The notes under the pieces: generated by a model
Seen by the model: the letters and a program-made list of their open reading frames with translations, nothing else
The model's database searches: none
Told to the model about the DNA's origin: nothing
Origin: Pedobacter sp. BMA
GTDB lineage: Bacteria; Bacteroidota; Bacteroidia; Sphingobacteriales; Sphingobacteriaceae
Length of the DNA stretch: 64,000 bases
NCBI RefSeq assembly: GCF_001027745.1
Contig: NZ_LECU01000004.1
Span: forward strand, 372,001 to 436,000
Reading direction: 5' to 3'
Shown here: one piece after another, positions 46,229-54,273 of the stretch
Layout: every line of letters starts with the position of its first letter
Position numbering within the stretch: the first letter of the stretch is position 1
Translations under genes and position numbers: made by a program

Positions 46229-46846
46229 TTACTTGTCTAAGATTACGTAAGAACCTTTAGCTCCTGGAACGGAACCACTAACTACTAATAAGTTTTGATC
46301 AGCATAAACTTTCAAAATTTGTAAATTCTGAATTTTTACTCTGTCTCCACCTGTTCTTCCAGCCATGCGCATTCCTTTGAATACACGTGAAGGGAATGAT
46401 GACGCACCCAGTGAACCTGGCGCACGTAAACGGTTGTGCTGACCGTGAGTCTGCATACCAACACCACTAAATCCGTGGCGTTTCACAACACCTTGAAAAC
46501 CTTTACCTTTAGAGGTACCTACAACATCAACAAAATCACCTTCTGCGAATGCATCAACAGTTACTACATCACCTAAATTAAGTGAAGCTGTAAATGAATC
46601 AAATTCTACCAGTTTGCGTTTTGGAGTTGTGTTCGCTTTAGCGAAATGGCCTTTTAACGGTTGAGTTGTGTTTTTCTCTTTAGCCTCATCGTATCCTAAC
46701 TGGATAGATGAATAACCGTCTTTTTCTTCGGTTTTTACCTGTGTAACTACACAAGGCCCAGCTTCGATTACAGTACAAGGAATGTTTCTTCCTTCTGCAT
46801 CGAAAATACTGGTCATTCCTACTTTTTTTCCAATAATTCCTGACAT
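46229..46846 (-). CDS. rplC: 50S ribosomal protein L3
   Basis: A 205-residue early-assembly protein reaching the peptidyl transferase centre. The start is set at [15 protein letters not shown]; the longer frame crosses the leader hairpin. The central loop reads [20 protein letters not shown]; the E. coli counterpart GQNQTPG carries the Gln methylated by PrmB, and that Gln is Ala here. It is the first gene of the operon, since rpsJ is located with the str operon instead. Confidence 0.97.
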
Positions 46847-46871
46847 TTTATCTTTTCTTTTTAACACCCAT

Positions 46872-46889
46872 CGAAGCAGTAGGGCTTCG
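46872..46889 (-). promoter_or_regulatory. Small hairpin in the rplC leader
   Basis: A six-base perfect stem (cgaagc/gcttcg, loop agtagg) lies in the 5' leader between the promoter and the rplC start. It may be a regulatory leader structure or an incidental hairpin. Confidence 0.35.
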
Positions 46890-46924
46890 TTCAAGGTGGT
46901 TGTTCAATCCCCCGAAAGGGACGG

Positions 46925-47019: not shown

Positions 47020-47412
47020 TTAATGTGCCAATCCACCACCTAAACTTATGGTTATGATGGTTAAAATGATAAACCCGATAAGCACATACAGGTAGTCTTT
47101 CTCTATAAAAAAGCTAATAATGGCAAAGATAATTCGAGCTATCGGTGTGAAAATCAGCATCAATATACCAAACTGAATGATGGCATCCCCCTCCAGGGAA
47201 GGAATTCCTTTAACTATTTTAATAATAGAAGAAAACTTCGCAAGCTCAGGCTTAAATACCCTATAATCGGTAACTGAGCCTTTCTTGTGAAATAGAAAAA
47301 TAAAACCTCCAACCAGCACAATGGTCATGGATATCACTACTCCGGCACGAAGCATGATACCTAAAATGACCTGAATATCTTTATCACCTGAATTTTTATT
47401 GTGCCTCATCAA
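47020..47412 (-). CDS. DUF1634 membrane protein
   Basis: A 130-residue protein with three hydrophobic segments, the middle one including IIQFGILMLIFTPIARIIFA. DUF1634 proteins are commonly encoded beside TauE/SafE anion exporters, as here: the gene starts one base after the exporter stop. They may form a complex, but no role is established. Confidence 0.85.
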   Translation of the reverse strand: MMRHNKNSGDKDIQVILGIMLRAGVVISMTIVLVGGFIFLFHKKGSVTDYRVFKPELAKFSSIIKIVKGIPSLEGDAIIQFGILMLIFTPIARIIFAIISFFIEKDYLYVLIGFIILTIITISLGGGLAH

Positions 47413-48246
47413 TTATAATCCGCTAATTCCTTTATAAATCATTTGCAGAGCAAGAAAGGTAACCACCACCGCAAAAACAATTTTAAGTTTACCGGTCTTA
47501 ACTTTTAGCAACAGCTTTGAGCCCAAAGTGGCCCCGGTTAGTACACCGATACAAACAGGCATGGCAATACCCGGATCAATTTGTCCTCTGTGCAGATATA
47601 CGACTGCACTGGCAGCTGCTGTTACGCCCATCATAAAATTGCTGGTTGTGGTAGATACCTTGAAAGGGAGGCGCATGATATTATCCATTGCAATAACCTT
47701 TAATGCTCCGCTCCCAATCCCCAATAACCCGGATAGTGTTCCCGCAAGTAACATCATCGAAAAGCCGGCAGGTATATGTTTTACCGCATATTCATGCATA
47801 ATCCCTTTATCCGGATAAGTTCCATTGAGATTGAAGAAATTTGCCCACCTGTCGCTTCTGTCCAGTGTACTGTGATCTGTTTTTTTCCTGAGGGCCATAA
47901 TTGCCGAGAAGATAAGTATGCAACCAAAAATGATGGCGATGTAGCTTGCATTCAGATAAACTGCTACAATTGCACCGCAAACTGCGCCAACAGTAGTTGC
48001 AATTTCAAGAAACATCCCTATTCTGATATTCGTAATTCCCTCTTTAACATATGCTGCTGCCGATCCGGATGAGGTAGCGATTACCGAGACAATTGATGCT
48101 CCTATTGCGTAGTGTATATCGACACCCAAAACAAGGGTAAGTAAGGGAATAATAATAACCCCGCCTCCCAAACCGGTAAGAGAACCCACTAAACCGGCTA
48201 GCAGAGAGCCTAACAAAACGATAAGGGTAAACAGCAACACCGACAT
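47413..48246 (-). CDS. TauE/SafE family sulfite/organosulfonate exporter
   Basis: A 277-residue inner-membrane protein with about eight hydrophobic segments in two related halves. The repeated Gly-rich motifs are GLVGSLTGLGGGVIIIPLL near the N-terminus and GTLSGLLGIGSGALKVIAMD in the second half. It probably exports sulfite or a sulfonate. Together with the adjacent DUF1634 gene it forms a two-gene operon. Confidence 0.9.
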   Translation of the reverse strand: MSVLLFTLIVLLGSLLAGLVGSLTGLGGGVIIIPLLTLVLGVDIHYAIGASIVSVIATSSGSAAAYVKEGITNIRIGMFLEIATTVGAVCGAIVAVYLNASYIAIIFGCILIFSAIMALRKKTDHSTLDRSDRWANFFNLNGTYPDKGIMHEYAVKHIPAGFSMMLLAGTLSGLLGIGSGALKVIAMDNIMRLPFKVSTTTSNFMMGVTAAASAVVYLHRGQIDPGIAMPVCIGVLTGATLGSKLLLKVKTGKLKIVFAVVVTFLALQMIYKGISGL

Positions 48247-48323: not shown

Positions 48324-49580
48324 CTATTTCCCTAACCTTTTGATCATTTCGGCACTTAAATCCCTTCCGTCATTTAAACGATTGGCAAAGAAAGACTTTG
48401 CTGCTTCGAAATGAGCCTTGTAACCATTCAAATCTCCATAACCTATAATCGATGCCCACTCATGAACCGCTGTATGAAATTCCAAATCATCCCCTCTGAT
48501 AGATTTATCATAAAGTGCAGTGATTATCGACTCTTCAAGCATAGATTCATTTTTAAAAAGATATTCTGCAATGCCTAATCTCAATTTAAAAGGCGGAGTT
48601 TGACAAATCAGGTTATCATATGGGTTAACCCCCATTTTATACCATGCATAAACCATGCTCAATAAACTGAGATGAGAATTTGGTTTGAGCTTATGATTGG
48701 CGTCAGACAGGCTAAATTCTTTCATGATGTTATCATCAAGTAATAGCAGCTGGCGACTTTCGTGAAAAACAAAATCCCTTGCAGCATATATCTTCTCGCG
48801 GAACGCAGTTTCATTTTCACAAATCATCAGCTTGAATAACTCTGATTCTGCCTGCGCATAATACTTCACCTGCTTCTGTGCATAAGGATTTAAAATGGCG
48901 AGACCGGCATAGATATGCGATTTATAACTAAAAATCCTTAATGTAGTTAGAATTTTTACATTATCTATTCCCCCGGCGTAAGCAGGATTATCCCAGGGAA
49001 AAAACCCAGCATTCTTCCAGGCTGATCCCATACTCTCGAACCCCATGTGCGTAACGGCCTGTGTATCGGCTACAATCTTATCATGCTCCCTATAATCATC
49101 CATTTCAATAATATTTGATTTGAGAGACTTGTAAACTTCTAACGCCCTAATGTACACATCATCGGTTGCCCTGTGGCGTACCACTACCAAAGTTTGTCCC
49201 TCGGGACTGAAAGCCGGACCATGCAATGAATGACAAGTAACGATCTGTGTATCCTGTGGAAGATGTTTTTCAAATGCAGCAATTTCAGGATGTTTAACAG
49301 AAGTTTGCCCGGAAACAATGGCACCAAACTTCGTTGAACGGGCGAAATTGGCCACCACTTCATCAATTTTTTCAGCCTCAACACAATAGATGATAAAGTC
49401 TGATTTTCTCGCAACCTCATGTCCATCGATTAATACTTCAATACCTTTTGGTTCCAGTTCATTTTTCAGATCACTAAAACGCAATGGCATGTCTGCCCCA
49501 CATACACTATAGCCAGCATTTACGAACGAAAGGGCATACAACTTGCCCATGTCGCCTAAACCGATAATTCCTATTTGCAT
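48324..49580 (-). CDS. Prephenate dehydrogenase resembling the fungal (Tyr1) enzyme
   Basis: A 418-residue tyrosine-biosynthesis enzyme oxidatively decarboxylating prephenate to 4-hydroxyphenylpyruvate. The N-terminal Rossmann motif is IGIIGLGDMGKLYA. Segments such as SDFIIYCVEAEKIDEVV, HSLHGPAFSPEGQTLVVVRH and EHDKIVADTQAVTHMGFESM, and the later LRIFSYKSHIYAGLAILNP and SHLSLLSMVYAWYKMG, align with yeast Tyr1 along the whole length as I recall it. It is longer than the usual bacterial TyrA dehydrogenase (about 280-370). No aro or tyr genes are adjacent. Cofactor preference cannot be read with certainty. Confidence 0.85.
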   Translation of the reverse strand: MQIGIIGLGDMGKLYALSFVNAGYSVCGADMPLRFSDLKNELEPKGIEVLIDGHEVARKSDFIIYCVEAEKIDEVVANFARSTKFGAIVSGQTSVKHPEIAAFEKHLPQDTQIVTCHSLHGPAFSPEGQTLVVVRHRATDDVYIRALEVYKSLKSNIIEMDDYREHDKIVADTQAVTHMGFESMGSAWKNAGFFPWDNPAYAGGIDNVKILTTLRIFSYKSHIYAGLAILNPYAQKQVKYYAQAESELFKLMICENETAFREKIYAARDFVFHESRQLLLLDDNIMKEFSLSDANHKLKPNSHLSLLSMVYAWYKMGVNPYDNLICQTPPFKLRLGIAEYLFKNESMLEESIITALYDKSIRGDDLEFHTAVHEWASIIGYGDLNGYKAHFEAAKSFFANRLNDGRDLSAEMIKRLGK

Positions 49581-51855: not shown

Positions 51856-54273
51856 TTAGTTTATAGAAATCCACGAAGTCCCATCACTTTGAATCGTTAT
51901 GGTTTTATTGCCGTTTAAGGTTGTGATATTCGTATCATCATTTAGAGTAACCGGATTGTTAAACGTGATGTTTCCCGATGACAAAGCCTTTACGATAATG
52001 TAAATACGCCCTTTGCACGTTGCGGCAGCAGGAAGATTAATATTAACAGCAGCTGCTGTATTTTTTACCCGAACAGTGTAATGACTGTCATCGAGGGTTA
52101 ATGTACCTGCAGTAGTATACGTTAAAATACTCGCTGAAACAGAGCCATTAATATTTAATGAACTTGTATTGGCGGGAGCATATGATGTGGCGCTTGCAGC
52201 TGAAGAGCCATTAATCACAATTGCACCGCCGTTTGTTGTAAAAGTTCCTTGTATTAGCGGATAGGTGGTATTTGAATTGGCAATCACCAATGTATTGTTT
52301 GCAGCGGTGAGCGTGTTTCCCGCATTGCTGCCAATAAATACATTTCCACTACCGCTGTTTTTTGAACCGGCAGCATATCCTAACGCGGTATTATTATCGC
52401 CATTGCTTGCTTCCAGCGCTATACTACCAATTGCAGTGTTAGCCACACCGGTACCATTTGCCATTAAAGCATGGGTACCAAAAGCGGAATTATTGGAGCC
52501 AACAGTATTGATTAACAATGCCTGCGAACCGAAACCACTATTGTTAATTCCACTGAAACTCCTTTGTAAAACCATGTATCCAAACGCGCTGTTCTCGTAG
52601 CCCGATATATTTAACGACAGGGCTTCCCGTCCGAATGCGCTATTGTAAAATCCTGAAATATTTGAAGTAAACGTTTTGTAGCCGTAGGAAATATTGTTTT
52701 CAGAAGAGTTACCTAATCTGCCGGATTTTTGACCGTTCACCATGAAGTTAATTGCCACGTCGTCGGTATTACCCAAAAAATTGTTTGTCTGGTCAACGTT
52801 TCCTGTATTACCCCCTAAAGCCCAGGCATTTGCATTAGCGAACAATGTTCTGCTAATCAGCTCTGGTTTTCCTGTAGTCGCGTTTGTGATATATACTTTA
52901 TTTGCATCGCCTACACCATTTGTTGTTAATTTAGCCAGCGTAACTGATGCATCCACTAACTTAGGTGTACTTACAGCAGCATCAGCAATTTGTAGTGTGT
53001 TTACTGCTGCATCAGCTATATTCACATTTTTTATTTCCTTGTTACCAATTTTTATCGAAGTAACTGCGGCATCTGCAAGTTTTGAAGTAATAACAGCATT
53101 ATCCGCAAGTTTGACTGTGGTTACTGCACCTGAATTAATATCTACAACAACATCTTTCAGTAAAGCAGTTGAACCGTTTCCACTAATACTTAAGTCTGTA
53201 GATGACAGCGATTTTGCACCTGCCAGCTGAGCCACATCCAAGGTTACCGGTCGCCATGTGGTTCCGTTATATAAAAGAACCTGATTGGCTGATGGAGCAG
53301 CAGCCGATAGAGTGATGCCCTGTAAGCTGGCAATAGTTGGATTTGGATAGTTACCTGTTAAATCGCCACCAGCTACACCAGTCGATGGTCCAACCGGACC
53401 TGTATCTCCCTTTTCACCTTTGTCACCCTTCGCACCTGCTGTACCTGGTATACCCTGAGGTCCTGTTGCGCCTATATCACCCTGCGGCCCCTGTGCCCCG
53501 GTTGCACCTGTAGCGCCGGCAATCCCGGCAACACCTTGTGGACCAACCGGGCCAGTTGCACCAATGTCTCCTTTCAAACCTTGCGGACCTGTAGCTCCTG
53601 TAGCTCCTGTAGCGCCGGCAATCCCTGCAACACCTTGTGGACCAACCGGGCCGGTTGCACCAGTATCGCCTTTTAAACCTTGCGGACCTGTAGCTCCTGT
53701 CGCGCCGGCAACACCAGCAACACCTTGCGGACCAACCGGGCCGGTTGCACCAGTATCGCCTTTTAAACCTTGCGGACCTGTAGCTCCTGTCGCGCCGGCA
53801 ACACCAGCAACACCTTGCGGACCAACTGGGCCAGTTGCACCAGTATCGCCCTTTTGCCCTGTTGGGCCGTTCGCTGCGTACAGCGCATAGGGTACACTCA
53901 ATAACTGAGCGGTTCCGGCTATAGTGAAGTTGGTTCCGTTGTCAGGATCAACTTCAACTTTAATATATTTTAGGCCTGTTCCCCATGTAACTCCTGCTAT
54001 AGTGCCTGTAACTGAAGAAGCGCCAGCGCCACCAATAGCAATAGCATAAAGTCCGACTGTATTTGTGGTAACCGTTCTCACCTCGACATATTGGACAGTT
54101 CCGGTCGCCGAGGCATCAAGAATGCTTAAACGGACAGCAATATTTTTATTGACTAAGGGAGTGCCGCTGGCATTTCTGGCAGCACCCTGATAATTGAATT
54201 GTTGAGGAGCCTGGGCCCGAACGAACATTGCCAAGCCCATACTTAGCAAAGTAATAAGTAAAAGTTTTTTCAT
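51856..54273 (-). CDS. Collagen-like, YadA-head-like surface adhesin
   Basis: An 805-residue exported protein. A signal peptide (ends FVRAQA) is followed by a beta domain (about 22-133, [15 protein letters not shown]). Then come about 50 Gly-X-Y triplets (about 135-290), in which [20 protein letters not shown] recurs. Next is a region of IADAAV/LADAAV heptad-like repeats (about 380-460). A YadA-head-like region follows (about 530-660), with repeated NSAFG..AL units. A terminal beta domain closes it. It has no sorting domain of its own. Trimeric assembly is likely from the collagen and YadA-like parts. First gene of a three-gene cassette with the type B domain protein and PorP. Confidence 0.88.
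53437..53880 (-). repeat. Tandem repeats encoding the collagen-like region
   Basis: Units of 90-99 bases encode [12 protein letters not shown] type triplets. Units 53641-53730 and 53731-53820 are identical over all 90 bases. The next unit (53542-53640) is longer by one triplet and diverged, and the outer units are more degenerate. This suggests recent duplication or gene conversion in the array. Confidence 0.9.

Follow-up and report, generated by a model that had tools for sequence, protein, structure and literature searches.

A yeast Tyr1-type prephenate dehydrogenase homologue probably stands in the place of standard TyrA in part of the Sphingobacteriaceae and has its nearest sampled non-bacterial relatives among archaea

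Introduction

Yeast TyrA proteins form a cohesive cluster according to a passage of PMC1173090, and fungal TyrA shares a clade with some archaea, γ-proteobacteria and Chloroflexi in an excerpt of PMC5681985. Archaeoglobus and Ca. Huberarchaea are reported, in PMC11237513, to carry a chorismate mutase/prephenate dehydratase fused to prephenate dehydrogenase. A section of PMC7311316 records the use of Pedobacter mutant data and the confirmation of four TyrA-like proteins, in text that leaves the organisms concerned unstated. Tyr1-type enzymes of the Sphingobacteriaceae or of DPANN archaea have no description among the matches listed from open-access titles and abstract openings; since this literature is restricted to open papers, it is weak evidence of novelty.

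The window analysed here is a stretch of 64,000 nucleotides from Pedobacter sp. BMA (contig NZ_LECU01000004.1, positions 372,001 to 436,000 of the forward strand). It contains an intact open reading frame at 48324-49580 on the minus strand, with an ATG start, that encodes 418 aa. Taken together, the evidence makes it probable that the product is a working prephenate dehydrogenase that was acquired within the Sphingobacteriaceae in TyrA's place, perhaps from a source nearer to DPANN archaea than to yeasts. The protein is enzymatically ordinary, and the surprise is its three-domain, mutually exclusive distribution: a core amino-acid enzyme known from yeasts turns up, very patchily, in bacteria, archaea and eukaryotes alike.

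The gene and its protein

The gene, its parts and the residues discussed below are, in window coordinates:

48324..49580, minus strand: putative tyr1-type prephenate dehydrogenase gene, the one gene in the genome to exceed the PDH_N cut-off
48759..49580, minus strand: residues 1-274, TyrA-like Rossmann and helical dehydrogenase domains
48324..48758, minus strand: residues 275-418 and the stop codon, a mostly helical C-terminal part (alignments, predicted model)
49299..49301, minus strand: Ser94, by alignment the equivalent of catalytic Ser101 of soybean PDH1
49230..49232, minus strand: His117, by alignment the equivalent of catalytic His197 of E. coli and His124 of soybean
48936..48938, minus strand: Arg215, by alignment the equivalent of E. 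coli Arg294
48924..48926, minus strand: Tyr219, by alignment in the column of E. coli Gln298

In BLASTP, the protein aligns end to end with the 452-aa protein P0121 (199/427 positions identical, 47%; E 2e-132), which we take to be Saccharomyces cerevisiae Tyr1 (it is 98% identical to the yeast Tyr1 sequence), and with P0122, the Saccharomyces eubayanus prephenate dehydrogenase (NADP(+)), at 200/424 identical positions (47%). Judged from these alignments the resemblance is far above chance, bearing out the preliminary description, which had claimed likeness to yeast Tyr1 over the full length; every motif quoted there is present in the translation. When six bacterial proteins, the window's included, are aligned with seven from yeasts, mean column identity is 63% and the C-terminal NSHLSLL and DDLEF blocks are conserved. 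S. cerevisiae Tyr1 shares with the window protein the C-terminal part, the Ser/His pair and the Arg, and differs from it in having Asn at the 219 column and a eukaryotic host, the yeast forms also having a short N-terminal extension. The C-terminal ~145 residues are common to the yeast and archaeal Tyr1-type proteins and do not align to the standard TyrA proteins compared. JGI names many of the bacterial matches, and P0196 from the yeast list, 'prephenate dehydrogenase (NADP+)'; the protein searches show the best 120 of 2980, 3313 and 3173 matches.

Standard TyrA, as found in Sphingobacteriaceae (L101-L120) and in E. coli, matches the window protein in fold and catalytic residues over residues 1-274 but has no C-terminal part, and the E. 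coli protein is only 19% identical in the profile alignment. The greater length of the window protein, already remarked on in the preliminary description, is plain within the family, where open frames for standard TyrA span about 280-320 aa as against 418 aa here.

Pfam returns general NAD-binding families for the protein, with PDH_N at 26.4 bits against a cut-off of 26.5 when the protein is scored alone; in a whole-genome PDH_N search the window gene reaches 28.2 bits, over the cut-off, and the next match 13.2 bits. PF27505 is precomputed on the closest bacterial and yeast matches and is absent from the local Pfam scan, whose copy is probably older. The best NCBIfam match is a prephenate dehydrogenase model, at 76.8 bits against a cut-off of 464 and over residues 5-268 only; the cut-offs of the standard-TyrA models (PRK08655, PRK11199 and similar) are not reached (76.8 against 464 and 36.9 against 273 bits), and the yeast record yields the same pattern at 78.1 bits. 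A bacterial TyrA of the ordinary kind with a superficial likeness to the yeast enzyme would share the fold and would account for the best NCBIfam names being prephenate dehydrogenase models, but these scores, the 47% full-length identity to yeast and a tree in which 32 Tyr1-type rows split from 13 standard TyrA rows with support 100/100 refute this explanation, which has next to no chance of being right. The same split upholds the earlier suggestion that the protein lies apart from other bacterial TyrA.

The AF2 model of the 418-aa protein has a pLDDT of 89 and a pTM of 0.85, and TyrA enzymes lead its structural matches. The lower TyrA rows are tied, at a Z of 20-21, with ketol-acid reductoisomerases and pyrroline-5-carboxylate reductases, so that structural Z does not sharply single out TyrA. 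The traits of the TyrA superfamily, a Rossmann and a helical domain with catalytic Ser and His, are present in the alignments and the predicted model. Soybean PDH1 (5t9e, 5whx) is, of the solved structures, the closest in sequence and one of the leading structural matches; unlike the window protein, it is a chain of 271 aa, 23% identical in the Foldseek alignment, with Asn222 at its selectivity site.

Predicted activity

The equivalent of Ser94 is Ser in 193/193 bacterial, 10/10 archaeal and 158/158 yeast rows, and His117 and Arg215 are invariant across the same 361 Tyr1-type rows. The Arg215 column is that of E. coli Arg294, a prephenate-binding residue. Tyr219 would correspond, through the E. 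coli alignment, to the substrate-selectivity site at soybean position 222. This column differs by domain, with Tyr in bacteria, Gly in archaea (10/10) and Asn in yeasts, and an acidic residue (D/E) occupies it in 0/361 Tyr1-type rows. Non-acidic residues at the 222 equivalent go with prephenate preference in a passage of PMC5681985, and the window protein may likewise prefer prephenate over arogenate; its specificity is extrapolated, since Tyr219 is neither the Gln nor the Asn of the prephenate enzymes described there.

The Tyr1-type enzyme probably acts on prephenate in place of standard TyrA, converting it by oxidative decarboxylation into 4-hydroxyphenylpyruvate for tyrosine synthesis. Use of arogenate or some other substrate in vivo is quite unlikely. 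It would fit the change of the selectivity column from domain to domain, and an older report on the yeast enzyme's substrate is questioned in an excerpt of PMC1173090; against it stand the lack of acidic residues at the column in all 361 rows and the mutual exclusion with standard TyrA (below), which argues for the same pathway step. Because the three groups differ at the putative selectivity column, they offer a natural series for testing the evolution of TyrA specificity and feedback.

Distribution among bacteria

In the genome that contains the window (5.04 Mb, rated 100% complete), the profile search places no other gene above the PDH_N cut-off; the preliminary description had asked whether a standard tyrA is also present. 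Across the phylum, nine of 395 sampled Bacteroidota genomes have a Tyr1-type match, all of them Sphingobacteriaceae, and 386 have none, two further members of that family included. Among 161 Sphingobacteriaceae genomes, 88 carry the Tyr1-type gene, 49 standard TyrA (PDH_N at E 2e-27 or better, the next matches being at 4e-8 and weaker, counted within the family), 0 both and 24 neither. The Tyr1-type gene occurs in 12 of the 25 genera and standard TyrA in nine, by table reading. Fisher's p for the exclusion is 2e-23, an overstated value because the sampled genomes are related.

With 88 of 161 genomes carrying the Tyr1-type gene, the window genome is not special. Exclusion without overlap in 161 genomes looks like a clean case in which a distant form took over from a gene of a central pathway; a single clean replacement is a simplification, since genus g185 is mixed (14 Tyr1-type and 4 standard genomes). 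What is shown is full-length homology, the conserved Ser, His and Arg, the lack of another prephenate dehydrogenase gene over the cut-off and the 0/161 overlap; that the protein does the work of TyrA is probable. The 24 genomes with neither type may reflect tyrosine auxotrophy or another route; they include four Pedobacter genomes (G437, G456, G484, G499) rated 99% complete.

Standard TyrA is found in other Sphingobacteriaceae genera, PDH_N is present in a Bacteroides control genome, and a tyrA is noted for B. thetaiotaomicron in the portion of PMC1173090 consulted; against this background the Tyr1-type gene looks acquired in the family. A wider scan, covering one genome per GTDB species with two exact peptide patterns, gave 284 confirmed relatives, of which the best 80 comprise 73 bacterial and 7 archaeal loci. 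The bacterial ones are from Mucilaginibacter (41), Pedobacter (19) and Daejeonella (4), the remainder being labelled Sphingobacterium (1), Sphingobacteriaceae (1) or Bacteroidota at no lower than phylum or order (7). Closest to the window protein among the tree rows is that of Pedobacter fastidiosus, at 93%. A viral source was considered and set aside: 22 pattern matches occur in IMG/VR contigs, and none was confirmed as a relative.

Archaeal carriers

By title, the seven archaea among the best 80 of the 284 relatives are Pacearchaeota (3), Nanoarchaeota, Micrarchaeota, Ca. ainarchaeum and Woesearchaeota, all of which we take to be small-genome archaea of the DPANN group. The archaeal Tyr1-type proteins (L012-L016, L018, L038, L156-L158) resemble that of the window, the seven scan loci being 57-63% identical to it and 417-421 aa long, and are set apart from it by the Gly at the 219 column. 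Archaeal flanking genes, for TFIIB and L31e in L013 and for LSM in L015, indicate that at least these two loci are not bacterial contamination. The phylum of L012 has a match at E <= 1e-100 in 9/371 genomes; four of the nine were already among the scan loci, and two show strong divergence (L159 and L160). L161, L164 and L178 are additional long Tyr1-like forms of that phylum that have diverged; in L161 and L178, Ser replaces His178. Genome G643 has a pair of diverged Tyr1-like genes. The five diverged forms (L159, L160, L161, L164, L178) could possibly have a new function.

A PDH_N search (E <= 0.001) of the seven scan archaeal genomes gives one match each, except in that of L015, which gives none. 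Chorismate synthase was found in 0/7 of these genomes (L012-L016, L018, L038) and in 14/14 controls, and chorismate mutase in 4/13 archaeal genomes with close or diverged forms. The archaeal carriers examined do not seem able to synthesise chorismate, and this makes the enzyme's role and substrate in the seven carriers puzzling; it might work on prephenate taken up from a host or on a changed substrate, both of them guesses. In L012 a phage-type integrase gene (L012:6545-7318) follows tyr1 on its downstream side after about 290 bases and is a possible vehicle of it. Although labelled as different archaeal lineages, L014 (Micrarchaeota) and L018 (Ca. ainarchaeum) have Tyr1-type proteins that pair as sisters (100/98), which suggests spread among archaea.

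Phylogeny and rooting

Median identities are 60.8% between archaea and bacteria, 48.5% between archaea and yeasts and 46.3% between bacteria and yeasts, and the window protein itself has medians of 61% to archaea and 46% to yeasts. Bacterial and archaeal proteins are thus the most alike of the three groups, and the nearest non-bacterial relatives of the window protein, among those seen, are DPANN archaea, not fungi.

The ingroup tree has 32 rows (12 yeast, 11 bacterial, 9 archaeal), a selection from 194 bacterial rows, that of the window among them, 158 from yeasts and 10 from close archaeal forms; it omits L157 and the diverged L159, L160, L161, L164 and L178. The named fungal rows all belong to the Saccharomycotina. 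Yeasts fall on one side of a branch with support 100/100, and the bacteria make up a separate group (100/99; together in 100% of 200 bootstrap trees) outside the sampled yeasts, so that the nesting with fungal Tyr1 envisaged in the preliminary description is not borne out. Archaeal rows lie near the fork of the tree, support for a grouping of their own being as low as 52/0. A topology that unites the bacteria with the two sampled yeasts that branch first is rejected (p-AU 8.7e-5), as is one that joins the archaea to one such yeast (p-AU 6.8e-9); L015 placed with the bacteria, or outside bacteria and the other archaea, gives p 0.43 and 0.47, respectively. The stem of the bacterial group is 0.28 and attaches near the archaeal forks, which can be read, with modest confidence, as a sign of an archaea-like source.

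Minimal-ancestor-deviation rooting (own script) selects the branch between yeasts and prokaryotes, at 0.235 against 0.432 for the next distinct branch. An outgroup of 13 standard TyrA (eight from the phylum of L012, four from Sphingobacteriaceae, and E. coli; L107 left out) attached inside yeasts in 502 of 1000 bootstrap trees, between yeasts and the rest in 247, inside bacteria in 225, inside archaea in 24, beside archaea in one and elsewhere in one. The outgroup stem carries several changes per column and its placement wanders; standard TyrA is too distant to root with or to give the direction of transfer. Adding the diverged L161, L178 and L164 failed as well, these too being too distant. 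A profile hint that archaea are closest to standard TyrA (median bits with the first profile: archaea 130.8, bacteria 122.3, yeasts 106.2) was dropped, since it was gone once the profile was made from E. coli and Bacteroidota standard rows alone (29.1, 31.2 and 29.5 bits, respectively).

Origin of the gene

Inter-domain transfer best accounts for a gene scattered over a single family of bacteria, a small number of DPANN archaea and the fungi. That part of the preliminary description, which had raised transfer in either direction or an ancient shared branch, stands; its fungal emphasis gives way to the archaea as nearest non-bacterial kin. The gene would have entered the Sphingobacteriaceae in a single acquisition, followed by loss of the old TyrA, from a source close to a DPANN lineage rather than to yeasts. 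A passage from archaea to bacteria is weakly suggested, and the root does not support it, since the outgroup falls mostly in or beside yeasts (749/1000). A wider scheme, in which the three-domain lineage was born in DPANN, still home to diverged paralogues, and was passed once to a fungal ancestor and once into the Sphingobacteriaceae, displacing TyrA there, is speculative and rather unlikely; were it true, yeast tyrosine synthesis would run on an archaeal gene.

Should an early fungus have given tyr1 to bacteria and archaea, the prokaryotic proteins would nest inside fungi. The 502 outgroup placements inside yeasts lean this way, and, with Saccharomycotina alone among the named fungal rows, the prokaryotic group could belong within some other fungal branch; the rejected constraints that join bacteria or archaea to the earliest-branching yeasts, and the ancestor-deviation root between yeasts and prokaryotes, speak against it and leave a fungal donor doubtful. 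Bacteria as donor to the DPANN archaea, perhaps also to fungi, would explain why the only clear home of the enzyme is bacterial, the pathway being present in the window genome and chorismate synthase missing from all seven archaea, and 225 outgroup placements fall inside bacteria; yet the archaeal rows lie outside the bacterial group (branch 100/99) and other genera of the family keep standard TyrA, so that the Tyr1-type gene looks acquired there, and this direction, too, is unlikely. Descent from a common ancestor of the domains, with loss nearly everywhere and no transfer, fits the deep split between yeasts and prokaryotes and the diverged homologues (L159-L161, L164, L178) in the phylum of L012. 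It is very improbable in view of the losses it needs, with 386/395 sampled Bacteroidota lacking the gene and matches at E <= 1e-100 in only 9/371 genomes of the phylum of L012, and of the sister relation of L014 and L018 across archaeal labels. Acquisition within the Sphingobacteriaceae from a source near DPANN remains the preferred account.

Genomic setting

On either side of the gene stand rplC (46.2-46.9 kb) and fusA-rpsG-rpsL (57.9-61.0 kb), all named by eye, which confirms its reported position between the two halves of the ribosomal cluster. Its downstream surroundings are, in window coordinates:

46229..46894, minus strand: rplC (by eye), start of the downstream ribosomal half
47020..47412, minus strand: DUF1634 protein, a neighbour (Pfam)
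47413..48246, minus strand: TauE/SafE-type membrane protein, a neighbour outside the claimed function (Pfam)

From the end of rplC at 46.9 kb to fusA-rpsG-rpsL at 57.9 kb, about 11 kb is occupied mostly by other genes. Of the 54 bacterial loci whose 5 kb flanks are complete, 24 include rplC together with tyr1, as expected of a long-settled gene. The TauE-type and DUF1634 genes lie directly downstream of tyr1 in the window, and each is near tyr1 in 5 of the 54 loci. Base composition gives no signal of recent transfer (GC 0.401 for tyr1, 0.390 for the window).

The gene is also, as stated earlier, away from aromatic-acid genes: matches to PDT (pheA) and chorismate mutase sit near each other on a different contig, beside DAHP synthase, EPSPS (aroA) and chorismate synthase (aroC) recognised by eye from the translations. 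The standard tyrA of Sphingobacteriaceae, for its part, adjoins an aminotransferase gene in 13/20 loci. A place in the pheA operon as the mark of a lost tyrA was abandoned because the layout is the same in both genome types: in 30 genomes picked from the 161, a DAHPS/CM gene directly follows pheA in 17/17 Tyr1-type and 12/13 standard genomes. Elsewhere in the window, 51856-54273 encodes an 805-aa protein with collagen-like GXX repeats and coincides with a local G+C peak of 0.51.
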